From assembly GCA_905480425.1 (NCBI GenBank), contig CAJQQG010000008.1:1-45084 (forward strand): a DNA stretch of 45,084 nucleotides. Direction: 5' to 3'. Made by a program: the position numbers and the translations under genes. Below, piece after piece: positions 9,790 through 38,551 of this stretch (positions are counted from its first letter, which is position 1; each line of letters begins with the position of its first letter). The notes beneath the pieces are model-generated. The model was given only the letters and a program-made list of their open reading frames with translations, did not search any database and was not told the DNA's origin. This DNA is from an uncultured Flavobacteriaceae bacterium. GTDB taxonomy: Bacteria > Bacteroidota > Bacteroidia > Flavobacteriales > Flavobacteriaceae.

Positions 9790-9950
9790 ACCTGTATTAG
9801 TATTTTTTTGATAAACTCAACGAGCTTTTAATTCAGAAAGGCGAGTTTCTATTGCTAAAGCATGCTGCCTTGAGCAGATCCTTGAACAGTGGAGTAGCCT
9901 TAAACGTGATTTTTAGGAGTTTATACAAAAGGCACGCTAATACAGGTTTT
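9790..9950 (+). ncRNA. ssrS: 6S RNA (6S-Flavo type)
   Basis: The 160-base stretch after zapA has no ORF but folds as a long rod. ACCTGTATTAG at 9790-9800 pairs perfectly with CTAATACAGGT at 9937-9947, and ATAAACTC at 9811-9818 pairs with GAGTTTAT at 9917-9924. The remaining centre (about 9819-9916) forms the bulged part and inner hairpins. A T-run after the closing stem (9947-9952) can act as the terminator. Length, rod shape and position behind zapA match 6S RNA, which binds RNA polymerase and mimics an open promoter. Boundaries are approximate. Confidence 0.85.
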
Positions 9951-19760: not shown

Positions 19761-20597
19761 TTACTTAGACCATTCTTCAATGGATTTAGTATTTAAACGA
19801 ATATAGTCATTATTACCCGCCTCTTCCGCTAACTTTAAAGAGGTTTTCGCAGCTACAATGGCAGCTTCTGTTTCTTTTAATTCTGCAAGTATAAGTGATT
19901 GTTGACGATACATCCAGTATTTCCCTTCATCAAGATCAATTGATTTAGCAATCCATTTCTTAGCTTGTCTTAAATCCTTTCCAGTTTCTCTATAATAAAT
20001 GGCAGCACTATAGTAATCTCTAGATTTGGGGGATCCTTTCATGGTTTCCTTTATTGAAGCCATTGTTTTTTTATCTGTAGGTACTTTAAAAGGAATTTTA
20101 ACCTCGGTGTTTTCCCATTTAATATTTAAAGTAGCTCCAGTATTATTAAGATCATCAATTGAAATAGTAAAAGATTCCCAGGTAGTTTCAGTTGTATGAG
20201 GAACAACTTCCGCAACCGCTACAATTAAGTTCGTATTCCAGTTTTTTGGGAGCCCTGAATTTTCAGTATTACTGTAGAAAAAAACCTCCCATAAGGTTTT
20301 GCCTGGACGAATAAATAAAGCATAATTTCCTTTAGCTATTTTGGTGCCATCTAAAATTACATCATCAGAAAAGTTGATCATGGTATTTTTGTTTGCACCA
20401 GCTCTCCATAGTTCACCGTAAGGGACTAGATCACCCATTACAGTTCTACCCCGTAGTGCAGGTCTAGAATATTCAATAGTCACTTCAGTTAACCCAACAG
20501 TTTGTTGAATTTTACTATATGGGCTAGGTTGTGGCGTTAAGATTTGAGCAAATCCAAAAGAGCTTATCAAAAGCACTAAATATTTCAATTTTTTCAT
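19761..20597 (-). CDS. DUF2911 domain-containing secreted protein
   Basis: 278 residues. A short signal peptide (MKKLKYLVLLISSFGFAQ) is followed by the DUF2911 region: SPYSKIQQTVGLTEVTIEYS, RPALRGR, LWRAGANKNT and the TLWEVFFYSNT segment, which recur in this Bacteroidota family. The C-terminal about 80 residues contain helical repeats resembling TPRs. The protein is probably periplasmic; its function is unknown. A TATATTTG -7 box lies on the minus strand at 20616-20623, and the gene is monocistronic. Confidence 0.9.
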   Translation of the reverse strand: MKKLKYLVLLISSFGFAQILTPQPSPYSKIQQTVGLTEVTIEYSRPALRGRTVMGDLVPYGELWRAGANKNTMINFSDDVILDGTKIAKGNYALFIRPGKTLWEVFFYSNTENSGLPKNWNTNLIVAVAEVVPHTTETTWESFTISIDDLNNTGATLNIKWENTEVKIPFKVPTDKKTMASIKETMKGSPKSRDYYSAAIYYRETGKDLRQAKKWIAKSIDLDEGKYWMYRQQSLILAELKETEAAIVAAKTSLKLAEEAGNNDYIRLNTKSIEEWSK

Positions 20598-20680: not shown

Positions 20681-20723
20681 TGTTTAACCATGTGTTATAA
20701 TATTTAAACATTTAGTAGATTTG
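20681..20723 (+). promoter_or_regulatory. Promoter region with inverted repeat before the photolyase operon
   Basis: TAGATTTG at 20716-20723 fits the flavobacterial -7 box, 18 bases before the SRPBCC ATG. Just upstream, TGTTTAA (20681-20687) and TTAAACA (20704-20710) form a 7-bp inverted repeat with a 16-base gap, covering the place where the -33 box should be. A good TTTG -33 match at normal spacing is absent. This could be an operator for an activator or repressor; no regulator gene is nearby. Confidence 0.5.
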
Positions 20724-20740: not shown

Positions 20741-21217
20741 ATGAAAATATATCGTTTAAAAACGGTTCAAAACCTTCCAATTTCTCAAAAAAAAGCATGG
20801 GATTTTCTTTCTGATCCAAAAAATTTAAAAAGGATTACTCCTGACTATATGAGCTTTAATATTTTAGAAGGAGCCGCAGATAAAATGTATGCAGGACAAA
20901 TCATTCAATACATTGTTACGCCATTATTAAATATACCAACAAAATGGGTCACTGAAATAACTCATGTTGATGAGGGAAATTATTTTGTAGATGAGCAACG
21001 TTTTGGCCCATATGCACTATGGCACCATAAACATTTTATTAAACCCATAAAAAATGGAGTAGAAATGATTGATATTATTGATTATAAAATTCCATTAGGA
21101 ATTTTAGGTCAATTATTCCATCCAATTATAGTGGCACCCAAATTAAAAGAAATTTTTGAATACAGAGAAAAAGCACTTATTAACCTTTTTGGAGAATATA
21201 CAAATGATGAAAAATAA
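20741..21217 (+). CDS. SRPBCC (START/Bet v1-like) family protein, first gene of the photolyase operon
   Basis: 158 residues. The opening beta-strand, the KAWDFLSDPKNLKRITP helix-grip segment and the long C-terminal helix with FEYREKALINLFG are those of SRPBCC ligand-binding proteins. Proteins of this type often sit directly in front of photolyase genes in marine bacteria and cyanobacteria, but the ligand is unknown to me. It has no signal peptide and should be cytosolic. It overlaps the SDR gene by 11 bases, so translation is coupled. Confidence 0.85.
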   Translation: MKIYRLKTVQNLPISQKKAWDFLSDPKNLKRITPDYMSFNILEGAADKMYAGQIIQYIVTPLLNIPTKWVTEITHVDEGNYFVDEQRFGPYALWHHKHFIKPIKNGVEMIDIIDYKIPLGILGQLFHPIIVAPKLKEIFEYREKALINLFGEYTNDEK

Positions 21218-21905
21218 AAATATATTAGTGATCGGTGGAAGTTCAGGCATTGGTCTAGCTTTAGTTACATTATTATCACCAGATAATAATGTTTATGTTG
21301 CAAGTCGTTCTAACGAGGGAATTGCTGGTCTGAAGGTTAATTACATTCCTTTTGATGCTACTAAAGATACAATTGACACCTCACTTTTACCTGAAATTTT
21401 AGACGGTTTTGTATACTGTCCAGGGTCCATTAACTTAAGGCCCTTTAAGGGGCTGAAAATTGAAGCCTTTACAGATGATTTTGAGATTAATGTTATGGGA
21501 GCTATTAAGTCCTTGAAATCAGTCTTAGGATTGTTGCAAGCAAGTGCTAAAGCTTCAGTTGTTTTTTACAGTACTGTAGCCGTCCAAACGGGAATGCCCT
21601 TTCACAGTTCTATTTCTGCTTCAAAAGGTGCTATAGAAGGATTAACTAGGTCTTTAGCAGCAGAGTTTGCTCCTAAGATTAGGGTAAATGCGATTGCACC
21701 TTCAATCGTTGACACTCCCTTAGCCTCAAAGTTTTTAAATAACGATATTAAAATGGAAAAAGCTAATGAGCGTCATCCGCTAGGAAGAATTGGTACCGCT
21801 GAGGAGTTAGCAGATGTAACAGCTTTTTTATTAGGTGATAAGAGTAGTTGGATGACTGGAAGAATATTACAAATTGATGGCGGAATTGGTAATTTAAAAA
21901 CATAA
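21207..21905 (+). CDS. SDR-family protein lacking the catalytic tyrosine
   Basis: 232 residues from the ATG at 21207 (an ATG at 21204 adds one Met; a longer frame from 21156 lies inside the SRPBCC gene). The Rossmann NAD(P) motif GGSSGIG is at 10-16, and the IRVNAIAPSIVDTPL block and C-terminal DGG are classical SDR features. The catalytic centre is altered: in SSISASKG the position of the YxxxK tyrosine is I136, with K140 kept and T123 at the usual Ser site. It may bind NAD(P) without normal oxidoreductase chemistry. It lies between SRPBCC and the first photolyase, eight bases before the latter. Confidence 0.87.
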   Translation: MKNKNILVIGGSSGIGLALVTLLSPDNNVYVASRSNEGIAGLKVNYIPFDATKDTIDTSLLPEILDGFVYCPGSINLRPFKGLKIEAFTDDFEINVMGAIKSLKSVLGLLQASAKASVVFYSTVAVQTGMPFHSSISASKGAIEGLTRSLAAEFAPKIRVNAIAPSIVDTPLASKFLNNDIKMEKANERHPLGRIGTAEELADVTAFLLGDKSSWMTGRILQIDGGIGNLKT

Positions 21906-21913
21906 ACACATTA

Positions 21914-23218
21914 ATGGAAAAAATCACGTTATTTTGGTTCAGAAGAGATCTTAGGATTGAAGATAATTGTGGATTATTTCATGCTTTGAACGGTAAAAAC
22001 AAAGTATTGCCGATCTTTATTTTTGATAAAAAAATTCTTAAAAAACTTCCAAAGCAAGACGCTCGCCTTGAATTGATATTAATGTCCTTGAACAATATTG
22101 ATCTTGCTATGAAGACCAAACGATGTTCTGTTAGAAGATTTCATGGTAATCCAAAGACTATTTTCCCAGAGTTAATAAACAAATGGAGGGTTGAAAAAGT
22201 TATTTGTAATGAAGACTATGAACCTTATGCTACCAATCGAGACGCTGAAATTCATCGACTATTAGAAAAAGAGGGGGTAGCTTTTGAAATGTATAAGGAT
22301 CAGGTAATTTTTGCAAAAGATGAAATCGTTAAAAAAGATGGTAGCCCTTATAAAGTTTATACACCATTTTCAAGAAAATGGCTTGAACGTTTTGAAGAGA
22401 ATCCATTAAAAACATATCCTTCAGAAACTTTATTAGGAAATTTAACTTTAAACGAATCGTTCCCTAAAATCAATCTTGCTGACTTAGGATTTGATAAAAG
22501 TATTATTGTAGAGCCAAAATATTCCTTTGATAATAAAGTTATTGATGAATATGAAGAGACAAGAAATTTTCCTTCATTAAACTCAACTTCTAGATTAGGA
22601 TCTTATTTGCGTTTTGGAATAGTTAGTGTTCGTGCTTTGGTTCAAAAAGCAGCTTCGCGTCCTAACAATATTTTTTTAAAAGAATTGATTTGGCGTGAAT
22701 TTTTCATGCAAATATTATGGCATTTTCCCCATACGTCTTATAAAAGCTTTAAGCCACAATACGATAAAATTGAATGGTTAAACAATCCAGCGGATTTTGA
22801 AAAGTGGTGTAAAGGTGATACTGGTTATCCTCTTGTTGATGCAGGGATGCGTCAGTTAAATCAAACTGGTTTTATGCACAATAGAGTGCGAATGCTTGTA
22901 GGTAGTTTTCTGTGTAAACACTTATTAATTGATTGGCGTTGGGGGGAAGCATATTTTGCTGAAAAACTACTAGACTATGAAATGTCTAGCAACGTTGGGA
23001 ATTGGCAGTGGGTTGCAGGCTGTGGAGTAGATGCCGCTCCTTATTTTAGGATTTTCAACCCATCAGAGCAAGTTAAAAAATTTGATAAGGAGTTACGATA
23101 TATTCAAAAATGGGTGCCTAATTTTCAGGAAATTGATTATCCTGCTCCCATGGTAGATCATAAGAAGGCTCGTGAACGCTGTCTAATGGTTTATAAGACT
23201 GCCTTAAGTACTTTATGA
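21914..23218 (+). CDS. phrB: Deoxyribodipyrimidine photolyase, class I CPD type
   Basis: 434 residues. An N-terminal antenna domain ([13 protein letters not shown] at about 6-18) precedes the helical FAD domain with LIWREFFMQ at 258-266, [13 protein letters not shown] at 303-315, MHNRVRM at 321-327 and the FRIFNP end. All key residues align with E. coli PhrB: the FAD N5-contacting Asn (N360) and the electron-transfer Trp triad (W364, W341, W298). It should repair cyclobutane pyrimidine dimers with blue light. It overlaps DUF2256 by four bases (ATGA). Confidence 0.93.
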
Positions 23219-23349
23219 AAAGAGTATTAAAACAGCATCTACCTCAAAAAATTTGCCTTAGCTGTAAACGTTCGTTTCATTGGAGAAAAAAATGGGAACG
23301 AGACTGGGAATCTGTAAAATATTGTAGTAAAAAATGTAAAGGAGTATGA
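23215..23349 (+). CDS. DUF2256 zinc-ribbon microprotein
   Basis: A 44-residue gene hidden between two photolyases. It starts in an ATGA overlap with the upstream stop (23215-23218) and ends in an ATGA overlap with the CRY-DASH start (23346-23349). Four cysteines in two CxxC-like pairs (C14, C17; C37, C41) flank a basic, Trp-rich middle ([16 protein letters not shown]), the pattern of DUF2256. It probably binds one zinc ion. DUF2256 genes are repeatedly found beside cryptochrome/photolyase genes, but no function is established to my knowledge. Confidence rests on conserved motif, size and two-sided coupling. Confidence 0.88.
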
Positions 23350-24647
23350 AAACTGCTATTGTTTGGTTAAGAAATGATTTACGTTTTCAGGATCAGGAGT
23401 CTTTTTATAAGGCATGTAATGATTTTGATAGGGTAGTGGCTTATTATACATTTGAGCCTAAAGAATTTTTAAATACACAATGGGGTTTTCAAAAATCAGG
23501 AGCCTATAGAATTAATTTTATCCTTGAAACATTAGCTGCTTTAAAAATAGAACTACTTCAAAAAAACATAACACTAATTGTAGAAAATAAAACTGCAAGT
23601 GAGAGAATCCCTTATTGGGTAAATACAATTAACGCTTCCACTGTTTTTTATCAAAAAGAGTGGACTTCAGAAGAAAAATTTGTAACAGATTCTCTAATTG
23701 CCTCACTGCCAAAAAAAGTTATTTTAGATTCTCATTATGATCAATTTTTATTTCATCCTGAAGATCTTCCAATGACAATAGATTCAATCCCAGAGGTTTT
23801 TACTGTTTTTAGGAAACAATGTGAGAAATTTACTCAAGTAAGATCCTGTATTTCAAGTCCTAAACTATTGTCCAAAGATTCATTACTTGCCAAAACCTAT
23901 CCACTTCTTTCACTTAAATCTCTAGGATTTAATTCTTTTGAAACACCTGTAAATACAGCATTTCCTTTTTCTGGAGGTACAAATTCAGCAATAGACCGAC
24001 TAGATGATTATTTTTGGAAATCCAAACGGCTTTCATTTTATAAAAAAACAAGAAATGGAATGCTTGGTTCTAACTATAGCTCAAAATTTTCTCCCTGGCT
24101 TGCAAATGGATCACTTTCTGCTAAAACTATTTATTGGAGTATCAAAAAATATGAAAAAGAAGTTCATGAAAATGAATCAACTTATTGGTTAATTTTTGAA
24201 TTAATTTGGCGTGATTATTTTAAATACATCTCCTTGAAGCACGGCACTAAGATATTTAAGTTGGGTGGAATTTTATCACAAAAGTATACTTGGAAAACTA
24301 ACCATGAGATATATAAAAAATGGATAGAAGGTAAAACTTCAGAGCCTTTTGTTAACGCCAATATGATTGAACTTAAAAAAACAGGTTTTATGAGTAATCG
24401 TGGTAGGCAAAATGTAGCAAGTTATTTCACAAAAAATATGTTAATGGATTGGCGAATGGGTGCCGCATATTTTGAACAACAATTAATAGATTATGATGTT
24501 CATAGTAATTGGGGAAATTGGATGTATGTTGCTGGAGTAGGAAATGACCCTAGGGATCGAAAGTTTAACATTCAGTTTCAGGCAAGTAGATATGATGCTA
24601 AAGGCACATATCAAAAAAAATGGCTTCAAAATACCTTATTTAAATGA
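23346..24647 (+). CDS. DASH-family cryptochrome (CRY-DASH)
   Basis: 433 residues. The antenna domain begins [14 protein letters not shown]. The FAD domain shows [10 protein letters not shown] at 285-294, the DASH-typical [20 protein letters not shown] region at 335-354, [10 protein letters not shown] and [17 protein letters not shown] ending in FNIQFQA. N388 and the triad Trp W326, W369, W392 are in place. CRY-DASH proteins bind MTHF and FAD and repair CPDs in single-stranded DNA or act as blue-light sensors. Overlaps of four bases on both sides (DUF2256, FeS-BCP) show tight coupling. Confidence 0.93.
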
Positions 24648-26176
24648 TTTTAAGACTTATTCTTGGTGATCAACTCAATAGTCAACATTCTTGGTTTAAA
24701 GAAGTGAATCCCACTGTTTGTTACGTTATCATGGAAATGCGTCAAGAAACGGATTATGTAGATCATCACCTGCAAAAAGTTGTGGCATTTTTCAATGCCA
24801 TGAGACAATTTAAAATTACATTGGAAAGTCAAGGACATATGGTTAGATATCTTGCTTTGGATGCACCAGAAAACAAACAAAACCTATTATTAAATCTAAA
24901 CCTTCTAATTAAGGAATATAAAGTTTCACAATTTCAATACTTATATCCAGATGAATTTCGTTTGGACCAACAATTAAAAAAATTTTGTACTGCTCTTTCA
25001 ATTCCGTCACTGGCGTATGACACTGAGCATTTTATGACAACACGAATTTTTTTAACAAATTTTTTTGAAGGAAAAAAGCAATCAATAATGGAATTTTTCT
25101 ATCGAAGAATACGAAAGGATTTTCATTTGTTAATGGAGGGGGAAAAGCCTCTAGGAGGTGCTTGGAATTTCGATAAAAATAATCGTAATAAATGGAAAGG
25201 ATCTCCTGGAATTCCTGCACCTTTTATTCCCAATAAAGTTGCTTTAGAATCTTTAGTAAGCCTCTTGAAATCAAATGATGTCAATACATTGGGAACCATA
25301 GATTTAACAGCTTTTCTATATCCTTCAAATAGAGAAGAAGCCTTGCAACAACTACAGTATTTTAATGAGAATTTATTGCGTCATTTTGGCACCTATCAAG
25401 ATGCAATGAATACGAATGAAACCAACTTATTTCACTCAAGAATATCATTTGCTTTAAACACTAAAATGATAAATCCTTTAGAGGTTGTGGAGTCTGTTAT
25501 TAGCTATTATCACGACAATACTAAAGACATTGAACTATCACAAGTTGAAGGATTTGTTCGACAAATAATAGGATGGCGTGAATATATGAGGGGTATTTAT
25601 TGGCGTGAAATGCCAGAATATTCAAAAAAGAATGCGCTAGAGAATTATAATCCACTCCCTAATTTTTATTGGACTGCTGACACGAAAATGAATTGTCTAA
25701 ATACAAGCATACAAAATTCTTTAGATACTGGTTATGCCCACCATATTCAGCGTTTAATGATTACAGGTAATTTTGCTTTGCTAGCACAGGTAAATCCAGA
25801 TGAAGTTGATCGTTGGTATTTAGGTATTTACGCCGATGCTGTAGAATGGGTTCAGCTTCCAAACACTAGAGGTATGAGTCAGTGGGCAGATGGTGGAATT
25901 GTTGCCACTAAACCTTATGTTTCTGCCGCTTCATATATTAATAAAATGAGTAATTATTGTGATGAATGTATATATGATAAAAAGAAACGTGTTGGAGAAG
26001 ATGCTTGTCCATTTAACAGTCTATATTGGAATTTTTTAGATGATAAAAAACAATATTTTTATAAAAATAACAGAATGGGAATGATGTTACGATTATTAGA
26101 AAAAATATCTCCGGCAGATCTTGCTGATGTTAAAGAAAGAGCCTACAAAATTATTGCCAATCCTGATGCTTTTTAA
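24644..26176 (+). CDS. Iron-sulfur bacterial photolyase (FeS-BCP, PhrB/CryB type; (6-4) repair)
   Basis: 510 residues. The N-terminus [10 protein letters not shown] and the C-terminal region with [11 protein letters not shown] at 310-320 and [17 protein letters not shown] are typical of this prokaryotic clade. The four 4Fe-4S cysteines are C351, C439, C442 and C455, the same spacing as C350, C438, C441 and C454 of Agrobacterium PhrB. Two histidines at 366-367 (YAHHIQ) correspond to the active-site His of (6-4) repair. It is expected to bind FAD and a lumazine-type antenna and repair (6-4) photoproducts. It overlaps CRY-DASH by four bases and the next photolyase by eleven. Confidence 0.93.
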
Positions 26177-27635
26177 GCGCGAATCTTTAAATATTGTCTG
26201 GCTAAAACGTGATTTACGACTTTTAGATCATGAGGCTCTGCATGCAGCTTTATCTAGCAAGAGACCTTGTCTTTTATTATATGTTTTTGAAGATATACTT
26301 CAAACGGATTCTCATTATAGTCCGCGACATTTTGATTTTATAAAACAGTCCATAGTTCAGTTAGATTCTCAATTAGCTATTTTTAATTCTAAAGTTATGA
26401 CTGTAAAAGGTTCATTTTTAGATGTATTAGAAAACTTAAAAGAATTCTATAATTTCACCTTGTATTCACATCAAGAAACTGGAATTGGAATTACTTTTGA
26501 GCGTGATAAAAAAGTTAAATATTGGACAGATAAACATAAGGTTGTTTGGAATGAATATTTGCAACAAGGTGTTTTTAGAAGACTATCAAACCGAAAAAAA
26601 TGGATTCAACTTTGGTCTAAGCATATGAATCGTCCTTTATTTAATTTTTCTCCAGACAATGCACAACTTCTTTCTTTAAATGAAATTTCTAGACTAGAAG
26701 CTTTATTAACTCCTGTCTCTAAAGAAACAAATTCTTCAAAATGGTTTCAACCTGGAGGCGAGCAAAATGCACAACGGTATTTAAATTCCTTTTTTGATAA
26801 ACGATATTTAAATTATCAAAAACATATTTCAAAACCTGATTTGGCTCGTAAAAGTTGTAGTCGTTTATCTCCATACATAGCTTGGGGTAATATTTCAATG
26901 CGACAGATTTTACAACGTACAGAAGAGGAAAAAGAAAATGGGAAAAGGGGCAGGGCTCTTTCCTCTTTTGAATCAAGATTACGGTGGCAATCGCATTTTA
27001 TTCAAAAGTTTGAAATGGAGTGTGGTATGGAATTTAACAGTATAAACAAAGGATACCATAGTCTAGTAAAAGCGAAGCGTGCAGACTATTTGAAAGCTTG
27101 GAAAACTGGACAAACAGGAGTTCCAATGGTAGATGCTGCAATGCGATGTTTAATATCTACGGGTTATTTAAATTTTAGAATGCGTGCACTTGTCGTATCT
27201 TTTGTTATTCATCATTTGTGGCAGCCATGGCAAGCGATTTCCTCATTTTTAGCTTGCCAATTTCTTGACTTTGAACCTGGAATTCATTTTCCTCAAATTC
27301 AGATGCAGGCTGGAGAAACAGGAATTAATACCCTAAGAATTTATAATCCAGTTAAAAATGGTTTAGAGCATGACCCAGAAGGTGTTTTTGTTTTGCAATG
27401 GCTTCCAGAATTAAATAAACTACCAACTAATTTTTTACATACTCCGTGGGAATTAACCCCTATGGAAGCAGCATTGTATAATTTTGAATTGGGAGTAGAT
27501 TATCCAAAACCCATCATAGATCTTGAAGCAATGCATAAGAAAGCAAGTCAAATACTTTGGAACCTTAAAAAAAACACATTAGTAAAAAAAGAAAGTAAGC
27601 GCATATTAAACAAACACACTTTATCAACAAGATAA
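26166..27635 (+). CDS. Divergent cryptochrome/photolyase-family protein, FAD pocket altered
   Basis: 489 residues from the ATG at 26166, which overlaps the upstream stop by 11 bases (a longer frame from 26121 would add 15 residues from within the FeS-BCP gene). The antenna-domain start [17 protein letters not shown] and FAD-domain landmarks RWQSHFIQ at 273-280, W312 in [31 protein letters not shown] and RIYNP at 391-395 place it in the superfamily. But the FAD-contacting Asn is H374, the proximal triad Trp is I378 and the following Trp is M380. Classical photoreduction and repair are therefore doubtful; a sensory or structural role is possible. Confidence 0.88.
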
Positions 27636-27639
27636 TACC

Positions 27640-27924
27640 ATGAAAAAGAAACTTGAACTTAATGAAATTCAAATTGATCGTGTTATTGAAATGGCATGGG
27701 AAGATAGAACTCCTTTTGATGCCATTTTAATGCAATTTGGATTAAAAGAACAAGAGGTAATAACTTTAATGCGAACAGAAATGAAGGCTTCTAGTTTTAA
27801 AATGTGGAGAGCTCGTGTTCAAGGAAGAAAGACAAAACATAGTAAAAGTCGATCTGAAACTGTAGATCGTTTCAAGTGCACAAGACAACGTAATATTAAT
27901 AATAATAAAATTTCAAAACGTTAA
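27640..27924 (+). CDS. DUF2805 / TIGR03643 family protein
   Basis: 94 residues, starting four bases after the fourth photolyase. The first about 65 residues (the segments RVIEMAWEDRTPFDAI, FGLKEQEVI and FKMWRARVQGR) match the TIGR03643/DUF2805 group, small proteins known for sitting beside cryptochrome genes. A helix-turn-helix-like arrangement is possible but not provable by eye. The C-terminal 30 residues are strongly basic and low in complexity, compatible with nucleic-acid contact. It ends the eight-gene operon. Confidence 0.87.
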   Translation: MKKKLELNEIQIDRVIEMAWEDRTPFDAILMQFGLKEQEVITLMRTEMKASSFKMWRARVQGRKTKHSKSRSETVDRFKCTRQRNINNNKISKR

Positions 27925-27954: not shown

Positions 27955-29271
27955 CTATTGTGTTTTAACACGTTTTATTTTAGCTCCAATTTTTCGTAGT
28001 CGATTTTCGATATCCTCATATCCTCTGTCGATTTGTTCAATGTTATGTATAGTACTTATACCTTTTGCAGAAAGTGCAGCGATAAGTAACGATACACCTG
28101 CGCGAATGTCTGGGGATGTTAATGTTGTTGCTTTAAGTTTTGATTTAAAATCATGTCCAATAACAGTCGCTCTATGCGGGTCACACAAAATTATTTTTGC
28201 TCCCATATCAATCAATTTATCAACAAAAAACAAACGACTTTCAAACATTTTTTGATGCACTAAAATACTTCCCCTGGCTTGAGTAGCAACAACTAAGATA
28301 ATACTTAAGAGGTCTGGAGTAAATCCTGGCCATGGCGCATCTGAAATAGTGAGAATAGATCCATCTATATAGCTTTGAACTTCGTAACCATCAGTATGGG
28401 CAGGAATATATATATCATCACCTTTTTGTTCTAGGGTAATTCCTAATTTTCTAAAAACACTAGGCATTTGTCCTAAGTATTCCCAACGTACATTTTTTAT
28501 TGTAATTTCACTTTGTGTCATTGCAGCTAAACCCACCCAGCTACCAATTTCAATCATGTCGGGAAGTATTGTGTGGACTGTTCCTTTAAGCTTCGTTATC
28601 CCATCAATAACTAATAGGTTGGATCCTATTCCACTAATTTTTGCCCCCATCCTGTTAAGCATATTACAGAGTTGTTGCAGATAGGGTTCGCAAGCAGCAT
28701 TGTATATGGTAGTTCTACCCTCTGCTAAAACTGCTGCCATAACAATATTTGCAGTTCCAGTAACTGAAGCTTCATCAAGTAGCATATCAGTTCCAGTCAA
28801 TTTTTTTGCCTCAACACTATAAAAATAATCTTCACGGTTATAGTTGAAAGTTGCTCCAAGTTTAATTAGTCCTTCAAAGTGGGTATCTAATCGGCGCCGT
28901 CCAATTTTATCTCCTCCAGGCCTAGGAATACTTCCTTTTCCAAACCTAGCAAGAAGCGGTCCTACGAGCATTATAGAACCACGCAGTCCTTTTCCGTCGT
29001 TTTTAAATTTATCAGAGCTTAGGTAGTCAAGATCAATACTATTTGCTTGAAAGCTAAAATGACCTTTGGAAATTTTCTTAACCAATACTCCGAAATTTTC
29101 AAGAAGTTTGATTAGTTTATTGACATCTACAATGTCAGGTATGTTGTGAATGTTAACAACTTCCGGCGTGAGTAACACTGCACACAAAATTTGTAAAGAT
29201 TCGTTTTTTGCTCCTTGGGGAGTTATTGATCCTTTTAGAGGTTGTCCCCCTTCAATGATAAATGATTCCAT
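27955..29271 (-). CDS. murA: UDP-N-acetylglucosamine 1-carboxyvinyltransferase MurA, Asp variant
   Basis: 438 residues from the second Met (MESFIIEGG); a Met codon directly before it could also be used. The enolpyruvyl-transferase repeats, QGAKNESL at about 19-26 and the active-site loop RPGGDKIGRRRLDTH at 117-131 identify MurA. It joins PEP to UDP-GlcNAc, the first committed step of peptidoglycan synthesis, in the cytosol. The catalytic loop Cys (C115 in E. coli) is Asp (D121), the change known to make MurA insensitive to fosfomycin. It is preceded by the DUF4290 gene, three to six bases upstream, an arrangement usual in Bacteroidota. Confidence 0.95.
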   Translation of the reverse strand: MESFIIEGGQPLKGSITPQGAKNESLQILCAVLLTPEVVNIHNIPDIVDVNKLIKLLENFGVLVKKISKGHFSFQANSIDLDYLSSDKFKNDGKGLRGSIMLVGPLLARFGKGSIPRPGGDKIGRRRLDTHFEGLIKLGATFNYNREDYFYSVEAKKLTGTDMLLDEASVTGTANIVMAAVLAEGRTTIYNAACEPYLQQLCNMLNRMGAKISGIGSNLLVIDGITKLKGTVHTILPDMIEIGSWVGLAAMTQSEITIKNVRWEYLGQMPSVFRKLGITLEQKGDDIYIPAHTDGYEVQSYIDGSILTISDAPWPGFTPDLLSIILVVATQARGSILVHQKMFESRLFFVDKLIDMGAKIILCDPHRATVIGHDFKSKLKATTLTSPDIRAGVSLLIAALSAKGISTIHNIEQIDRGYEDIENRLRKIGAKIKRVKTQ

Positions 29272-29277
29272 CAACTT

Positions 29278-38469: not shown

Positions 38470-38543
38470 GGCGAGGTAGCTCAGCTGGTTAGAGCGTCGG
38501 ATTCATAACCCGGAGGTCGGGGGATCGTGCCCCCCTCTCGCTA
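38470..38543 (+). tRNA. tRNA-Met (CAT anticodon)
   Basis: A full 74-base cloverleaf without encoded CCA: acceptor GGCGAGG with TCTCGCT, D-arm GCTC-N9-GAGC, anticodon loop TTCATAA (anticodon CAT), T-stem GGGGG/CCCCC. The T-loop reads ATCGTGC, so position 54 is A and 58 is T, a swap of the near-universal T54-A58 pair. The anticodon stem has an A31-C39 mismatch. CAT could be elongator Met, initiator or tRNA-Ile2; the lack of three G-C pairs argues against initiator. Confidence 0.9.
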
Positions 38544-38551
38544 CATTATAC

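Follow-up and report, generated by a model that had tools for sequence, protein, structure and literature searches.

A stretch of 45,084 nucleotides from an uncultured Flavobacteriaceae bacterium (contig CAJQQG010000008.1 of assembly GCA_905480425.1), hereafter the window, carries an operon of eight genes, four of which belong to the photolyase superfamily. We propose, with a probability of about 0.78, that this operon serves photorepair within a light regulon controlled by a LitR/CarH-type regulator at a dyad, TGTTTAA-N16-TTAAACA, located before the first gene. The dyad and the box behind it support one shared promoter-operator for the operon, which its distribution among genomes ties to a light-sensor-type regulator, and the putative pairing of LitR with the dyad is supported by their distribution and their co-variation.

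In the proposed mechanism, LitR with adenosylcobalamin would sit in the dark on the dyad (20681-20710), which overlaps the promoter, and the operon would be off. Light would destroy adenosylcobalamin, and LitR would let go of the dyad. A single coupled mRNA would then yield a cyclobutane pyrimidine dimer (CPD) photolyase, a CRY-DASH protein, a (6-4) photolyase of the FeS-BCP type, a photolyase of a separate class, designated PHR4, and four accessory proteins, i.e., an SRPBCC protein, a short-chain dehydrogenase/reductase (SDR)-like protein, DUF2256 and DUF2805, and light repair would rise together with DNA-damaging light. Binding by LitR and the single transcript are predicted steps; repression, release and the repair specificities would follow from the families named.

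The dyad and its probable regulator

The dyad ends 30 bp before the first ATG of the operon (20741) and is followed by a match to TAnnTTTG, the Bacteroidota -7 box. A sigma-70 promoter scan gave no signal (42 sites, 48 in shuffles). The perfect dyad occurs only once in the source genome, which comprises 1.85 Mb in 79 contigs and is 85% complete. For comparison, gene surroundings of the SRPBCC gene were collected from 80 other Flavobacteriaceae genomes (84 had a match; the source genome and G016, G022 and G051, with weak partial matches, were left out), and 80 PHR4 loci were taken from named genomes, out of more than 80 matches. The two sets overlap in some records, and totals for the SDR and the dyad are given for distinct sequences. 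Across 215 fetched loci, the dyad with at most one mismatch and a spacer of 16 was found at 179 sites (174 distinct), against 1-18 sites for each of the spacers 10-15 and 17-22. The 18 copies with spacer 17 may be partly real. Among 143 cluster dyads, 46 stand before the SRPBCC gene, 50 before a TetR gene and 47 before an unknown gene, u14. The box TAnnTTT[GA] lies within 22 bp downstream of the dyad at 138 of these 143 sites, and exactly 5 bp downstream at 96, compared with 12% in shuffled stretches. The sequence-only reading, an earlier note made from the letters and open reading frames (ORFs), had treated the eight genes as one coupled unit; a common promoter-operator before the SRPBCC gene, conserved in compact clusters, argues for that view.

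The dyad is widespread in the family. In a survey of 100 Flavobacteriaceae genomes, one per genus, 242 perfect copies were found in 72 genera, compared with 13 copies of the reversed control pattern. To outline the regulon, 40 regions with 43 sites outside the photolyase clusters were hand-picked among the sites listed. The gene next to the dyad was crtI in nine regions, a fasciclin gene in nine, TetR in four and an FA_desaturase-type gene, probably a carotene ketolase, in one; one further site lay in a rhodopsin/blh spacer, and other genes accounted for the rest. The dyad-adjacent fasciclin-type genes are of the secreted type (L330, L332, L335, L338, L343, L346, L350, L351 and L363). In all nine crtI regions, the gene directly before crtI encodes a MerR-type protein with LitR/CarH cobalamin motifs.

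The source genome has such a gene away from the operon, before crtB and crtZ (L372:2710-3633). The protein matched PF13411 (MerR_1; 46.5 bits) and PF02607 (B12-binding_2; 43.5 bits), both above cut-off, and contains WQTGAISPTHEH and EIHELG, which fit Wx9EH and ExHxxG, the cobalamin motifs of LitR/CarH. Its frame is open from ATG to stop, although the genome search counted stops in the match range. A two-mismatch dyad lies at the litR ATG. The view, taken from a PF02310 search, that the source genome has no B12 regulator was overturned when the crtI loci revealed LitR, detected by PF02607. A one-mismatch dyad also lies at L375:1953, just before a Rieske-domain gene.

A profile built from the LitR proteins of the crtI loci divided the 100 genomes into 69 with a strong match (best E value 1.5e-94 or lower), 9 with a weak or divergent match (1.5e-64 to 1.0e-55) and 22 with none. 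Strong LitR was present in 67 of the 72 genomes with the dyad, but in only 2 of the 28 dyad-free genomes (p=8e-17). For the 81 genomes that were at least 90% complete, the corresponding numbers were 59/62 and 2/19. Of the 80 SRPBCC loci, 64 go with strong LitR, and 56 of these carry the dyad (at most one mismatch); of the 16 others, one does.

The regulator and the site also appear to change together. A systematic search for other dyads at the nine divergent-LitR loci found none common to more than two. An altered dyad, TGTCTAA...TTAGACA, was noticed by eye before the TetR gene of G040, a weak-LitR genome; altogether five of the nine genomes with weak LitR have it, compared with 3 of the other 91 (p=8e-5). 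In the five genomes it is located directly before fasciclin (three) or TetR-UbiB (two), and in two of the three fasciclin genomes it lies between LitR and fasciclin; one of the five also has it at a distance of up to about 0.6 kb from FolE and from the SDR gene. The sites in the three other genomes are inside unrelated ORFs. This joint change, although found post hoc, is good evidence for the reading of the dyad by LitR.

Several observations weigh against this assignment. The B12-binding domain PF02310 found no match in the source genome (E<=0.001) or in the LitR protein. Eight of the 64 photolyase loci in LitR-bearing genomes have no dyad. Two genomes have the dyad without LitR (G003 and G079, each about 80% complete), three have it with a LitR that is divergent (G007, G025 and G028), and LitR occurs without a perfect dyad in G020, which has a one-mismatch site, and in G092. 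The altered dyad was picked post hoc from G040; excluding this genome leaves 4/8 (p=6e-4), and the total over the 100 genomes is 10, against 4 for reversed controls. The rhodopsin/blh spacer of the source genome contains only a three-mismatch dyad, no better than chance. Finally, neither the sequence nor the spacing of the dyad is that of the LitR site of Pseudomonas (PMC9758184).

A different regulator was also considered. The TetR-like protein (PF17931) that heads the larger cluster described below might bind the dyad, with LitR riding along as both are common. Besides the 50 sites before TetR genes, the presence of TetR tracks the dyad (56/72 versus 6/28, p=4e-7), and the source genome has a PF17931 TetR, whose TetR-UbiB operon is preceded by a one-mismatch dyad and a TATATTTG box. 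However, where only one of the two regulators is present, the dyad was found in 14 of 15 LitR-only genomes and in 3 of 8 TetR-only genomes. The dyad also stands before crtI, beside litR, and the altered dyad came from genomes chosen by LitR divergence. Binding by TetR is therefore very unlikely in our view, and we retain LitR as the candidate regulator.

Composition and conservation of the operon

The features are listed in Table 1. The gene unit read from the letters is real. All eight ORFs lie on the plus strand, each overlapping or nearly touching the next one, and Pfam and NCBIfam confirmed the families of all but the first gene, including the four photolyase-superfamily genes: three with PF00875/PF03441 and one DPRP/FeS-BCP protein (PF04244). 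In a genome-wide search with PF03441, the three genes with this domain were the only ones found. The genome also has a rhodopsin gene. Junctions had been given as overlaps of 4-11 bases and gaps of 4-8 bases. This holds throughout (an 8-bp gap between the SDR and CPD photolyase genes, three 4-bp overlaps, one 11-bp overlap and a 4-bp gap, in this order) except at the SRPBCC/SDR junction, where the overlap is 11 bp only if the SDR starts at the second of two ATGs and is otherwise 14 bp.

Table 1. Positions in the window of the operon, its putative control region and the flanking genes
Feature	Positions	Strand	Basis or remark
Dyad TGTTTAA-N16-TTAAACA, putative LitR/CarH-type binding site	20681..20710	+	conserved upstream of SRPBCC in compact clusters
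TAGATTTG, matches TAnnTTTG -7 box	20716..20723	+	5 bp after the dyad
SRPBCC (START/Bet v1 fold) protein, 158 aa	20741..21217	+	AlphaFold model and Foldseek
SDR-like protein	21204..21905	+	PF13561; catalytic Tyr replaced by Ile
Class I-type CPD photolyase, 434 aa	21914..23218	+	PF00875/PF03441, motifs, tree
DUF2256, 44 aa	23215..23349	+	PF10013
CRY-DASH photolyase/cryptochrome	23346..24647	+	TIGR02765
FeS-BCP / CryPro-type (6-4) photolyase (by family), four Cys	24644..26176	+	PF04244
PHR4, photolyase of a separate class	26166..27635	+	PF00875/PF03441, residues, tree
DUF2805 / TIGR03643 protein	27640..27924	+	PF10985/TIGR03643
Flanking gene, presumably DUF2911-type; conserved left border, outside the operon	19761..20597	-	
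Flanking gene, presumably MurA-type; conserved right border, outside the operon	27955..29274	-	

The search for the same gene order in flavobacteria, which the sequence-only reading had proposed, was successful. Eleven fetched loci show all eight genes in exactly this order; as two of them are one record, the order recurs in 10 other distinct flavobacterial records, seven with both flanking genes and three with one. A further locus, L118, has the identical gene order, but its CRY-DASH gene is split. Several same-order records carry marine titles (North Sea, Fram Strait), and the clade is probably marine. Against three relatives, all computable ratios of non-synonymous to synonymous change (dN/dS, NG86) were 0.03-0.15. 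Saturation at synonymous sites was frequent; each of the eight genes gave one value or more, that of CRY-DASH coming from a partial copy.

Flavobacteria also have a larger light cluster, of which the window operon is the compact version. In many relatives this larger cluster contains TetR, UbiB, flavin reductase, atypical SDR, DUF2256, CRY-DASH, FeS-BCP and PHR4 genes in its first part, and u14, DUF2805, FolE, u15, SDR, glutathione peroxidase, TspO, SRPBCC and CPD photolyase genes in its later part. The labels of the extra genes, TetR excepted, were assigned by us from the sequences, and u15 is, like u14, an unknown gene. The presence of FolE and flavin reductase suggests a supply of folate antenna and reduced flavin. 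A run of DUF2256, CRY-DASH, FeS-BCP, PHR4 and DUF2805 was found in Dokdonia pacifica (L187). In the source genome, a u14-like gene without a Pfam match (L373:5117-5590) and the rhodopsin/blh pair are about 2 kb apart.

The larger cluster bears on whether the accessory genes belong with the photolyases at all. Genome streamlining might have packed unrelated light-stress genes together, with SRPBCC, SDR, DUF2256 and DUF2805 functionally untied to the photolyases; in larger relatives, the FolE, glutathione peroxidase and TspO genes separate the SDR and SRPBCC genes from the photolyases, and DUF2805 is often unlinked outside Flavobacteriaceae. On the other hand, a CPD photolyase gene lies within 9 kb of the SRPBCC gene in 69 of the 80 loci, DUF2256 directly follows PHR4 in Salinivibrio and Tritonibacter, and the gene overlaps are conserved among compact clusters. 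Packing by streamlining is thus an unlikely explanation. The SDR gene was found within 9 kb of the SRPBCC gene in 59 of the 80 loci, one of which has an unrelated SDR.

RNA features elsewhere in the window are a 6S-Flavo RNA (9815-9922), the end of a 5S rRNA gene (1-100) and a tRNA-Met (38470-38544).

The photolyases and their partner proteins

The CPD photolyase has the lesion helix ELIWRE and the block NVGNWQW, which contains the N5-Asn and Trp-x-Trp, and the corresponding N, W, W and E were invariant in all 70 aligned CPD photolyases. Its scores are below the curated NCBIfam cut-offs (TIGR03556, 357 versus 884.6 bits; PRK10674, 329 versus 506). The CRY-DASH protein scored 487 bits with TIGR02765, against a cut-off of 317. 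The FeS-BCP protein has the cluster cysteines C351, C439, C442 and C455, and its best PDB match is 7ykn, named as a 6-4 photolyase (501 bits); by family membership it would repair (6-4) lesions. Eight of 22 aligned FeS-BCP sequences do not have C439 and C442. Low-scoring FeS-BCP relatives are present in the light clusters of L045, L074, L083, L085, L087, L094 and L098.

The fourth photolyase, PHR4, had been described as a divergent type without the flavin adenine dinucleotide (FAD)-contacting Asn and the proximal Trp, and the comparison with E. coli photolyase bore this out. The lesion-contacting and FAD-N5 roles are those assigned to the residues of the E. coli enzyme; counted in K-12 with Met as 1, those E. 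coli residues carry numbers one above the ones usually published. In PHR4, the Asn that contacts N5 is replaced by His374 and the two Trp by Ile378 and Met380; Arg271 and Phe337 take the places of the Glu and the Asn that contact the lesion, respectively, and Trp274 and Trp355 are retained. The losses of the N5-Asn and the proximal Trp are conserved in the family, and GIH was found at the FAD-N5 block in 19 of 19 rows of the class. The 19 rows form one side of a branch in 100/100 and 200/200 bootstraps, outside the class I, DASH and low-scoring clades, in a tree whose references were E. coli and the sequences gathered here, without plant or animal cryptochromes, NewPHL or other classes. Two ungrouped long rows (Marinobacter and Halomicrobium) attach at the PHR4 branch. 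By this alignment and tree, the residue losses are traits of a separate, putative photolyase class, which was found in Bacteroidota, Vibrio, Salinivibrio, Pseudoalteromonas, Duffyella, Tritonibacter, Novosphingobium and Deinococcus.

The losses raise the question whether PHR4, and with it CRY-DASH, could be a cryptochrome photoreceptor and not a repair enzyme, so that the unit would mainly sense light. Compared with class I photolyase, PHR4 lacks the N5 Asn, the proximal Trp and the counterparts of the Glu and Asn that contact the lesion, and in the PDB it matches plant cryptochromes best (CRY2, 137 bits, versus 111 for E. coli photolyase). However, two Deinococcus plasmid records contain PHR4 fused to a uracil-DNA glycosylase (UDG) domain (L197:5998-8271 and L283:4007-6328), which points to DNA repair; PHR4 has no output domain, and the regulon already owns a light-sensor-type regulator. 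We judge a mainly sensory role quite improbable and keep to photorepair under LitR. In further Deinococcus PHR4 matches, the region is annotated as ung. A more specific picture is doubtful: PHR4 may use a His-flavin chemistry and act on deaminated, uracil-bearing pyrimidine dimers, within a B12-light-sensor regulon that joins photorepair, carotenoids, fasciclin and, in some genomes, proteorhodopsin/blh. If so, PHR4 would split the uracil-bearing dimer and leave the uracil for UDG, its fusion partner in Deinococcus.

The SRPBCC gene product gave no Pfam or NCBIfam match and no PDB sequence match at E<=10. Its AlphaFold model (mean predicted local distance difference test score 93.8) gave 337 PDB matches at E<=0.001 in Foldseek, with TTHA0849 at the top (1.2e-8), and has the START/Bet v1 helix-grip fold; the SRPBCC label therefore holds. 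The SDR-like protein has the Rossmann motif GGSSGIG (GGSxGIG across relatives). The absence of its catalytic Tyr, pointed out by the sequence-only reading, is a trait of its family: the active-site Lys of YxxxK is kept, but the Tyr is Val or Ile in 128 of 129 distinct sequences, and the same 128 have an invariant His three residues before the Tyr position. The remaining sequence, an unrelated SDR, had been included in the profile, and low-scoring SDRs outside the family mostly keep the Tyr (12/14). As a guess, the SDR and SRPBCC proteins may serve cofactor or lipid chemistry.

The Tyr-less SDR was also found near DUF2805, without a photolyase within 9 kb by four hidden Markov models (HMMs), in some Bacteroidota (L254, L258 and L259), and the plasmid search gave at least one clear relative among the matches listed (Spirosoma), with no photolyase listed near it. 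The earlier proposal of a dedicated light-dependent system stands as regards a conserved, light-related unit with uncharacterised extra parts, but the Tyr-less SDR is not peculiar to the operon.

DUF2256 scored 72.8 bits (cut-off 25) and contains CxxC...CxxxC, which is zinc-ribbon-like. The literature search found no paper joining DUF2256 with photolyase, and none joining any two of DUF2805, TIGR03643 and photolyase. DUF2805 scored 125.6 bits (cut-off 22.5); its predicted structure has a four-helix core and a basic tail, is confident only for residues ~10-60, and gave no PDB match at E<=0.001. Because of this limited region and the missing match, a DNA-binding role is only a guess. All functions named here for PHR4 and the four accessory proteins are putative.

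DUF2805 had been called a known neighbour of photolyases, and as a strict rule this was rejected outside Flavobacteriaceae. Of 40 other Bacteroidota loci, 12 have a photolyase at a distance of up to 9 kb by the same four HMMs (41 genomes, 40 loci fetched; G292, the likely twin of G245, was omitted). The plasmid regions reached through a DUF2805 match have a photolyase in 2 of 7 cases, and two cyanobacterial plasmid regions, from Tolypothrix and Nostoc, have none. A low-scoring photolyase-like family of about 365-417 aa forms its own clade (L248, L251, L252, L253, L261, L249 and L239) and adjoins DUF2805 in six of these seven loci.

Comparison with known light-responsive systems

No description of the dyad operator was found in the part of the literature searched. 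As far as that search shows, the operator, its Flavobacteriaceae-wide regulon and the descriptions of the Tyr-less SDR and PHR4 classes are new. A linked gene list becomes a testable circuit, with one regulator, one 30-bp operator and named targets, in a major bacterial group of the sunlit sea, and offers a way to study how flavobacteria with rhodopsin adjust their DNA repair and pigments to light. Two conserved puzzles are also brought out: the His of PHR4 at the flavin-contacting Asn, from Bacteroidota to Deinococcus, and the Tyr-less SDR, which retains the nucleotide-binding motif and has acquired an invariant His.

In Dokdonia MED134, cryptochrome and photolyase transcripts respond to light (PMC9040609). 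In proteorhodopsin-bearing marine Flavobacteriia, a gene-proximity cluster of photolyases, enriched in rhodopsin-bearing genomes, was described (Kumagai 2018, PMC5932025). The window resembles it in that photolyase-related genes stand together and the source genome has a rhodopsin; the excerpted text, unlike the present analysis, contains no analysis of an operator, a regulator, the SDR or PHR4. Synechococcus PCC 7335 has a UV-inducible UV-B operon of overlapping photolyase genes, and an 11-bp overlap is common to both systems, but that operon consists of two genes (PMC9649867). The authors of that paper were aware of just two previous accounts of photolyases in operons.

In a Chryseobacterium, carotenoids are induced by light, and the suspected regulator is LitR-like (PMC7064467); CarH/LitR control of carotenoid genes is known from Myxococcus and Thermus (cited in the same paper). 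As in the latter two, a regulator with MerR and B12-binding domains lies beside crt genes in the flavobacteria; unlike there, nine flavobacterial crtI loci share an operator with photolyase clusters.

A precedent is known from Pseudomonas: a cluster with phrB and an SDR gene is inducible by light there and is repressed by a class II LitR via TGTACA-N12-TGTACA sites (PMC9758184). The LitR/PplR/PmlR cluster shares with the flavobacterial one a LitR/CarH-family regulator, the phrB photolyase, an SDR, cryB and folE-type genes, overlapping genes and, as proposed here for the flavobacteria, dark repression via a site that overlaps the promoter. The flavobacterial system differs in its operator, TGTTTAA-N16-TTAAACA, in its Bacteroidota promoter and in having four photolyases in one operon. 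It also has SRPBCC, PHR4 and DUF2805 in the cluster, and crtI, fasciclin and, once, rhodopsin/blh at the same site.

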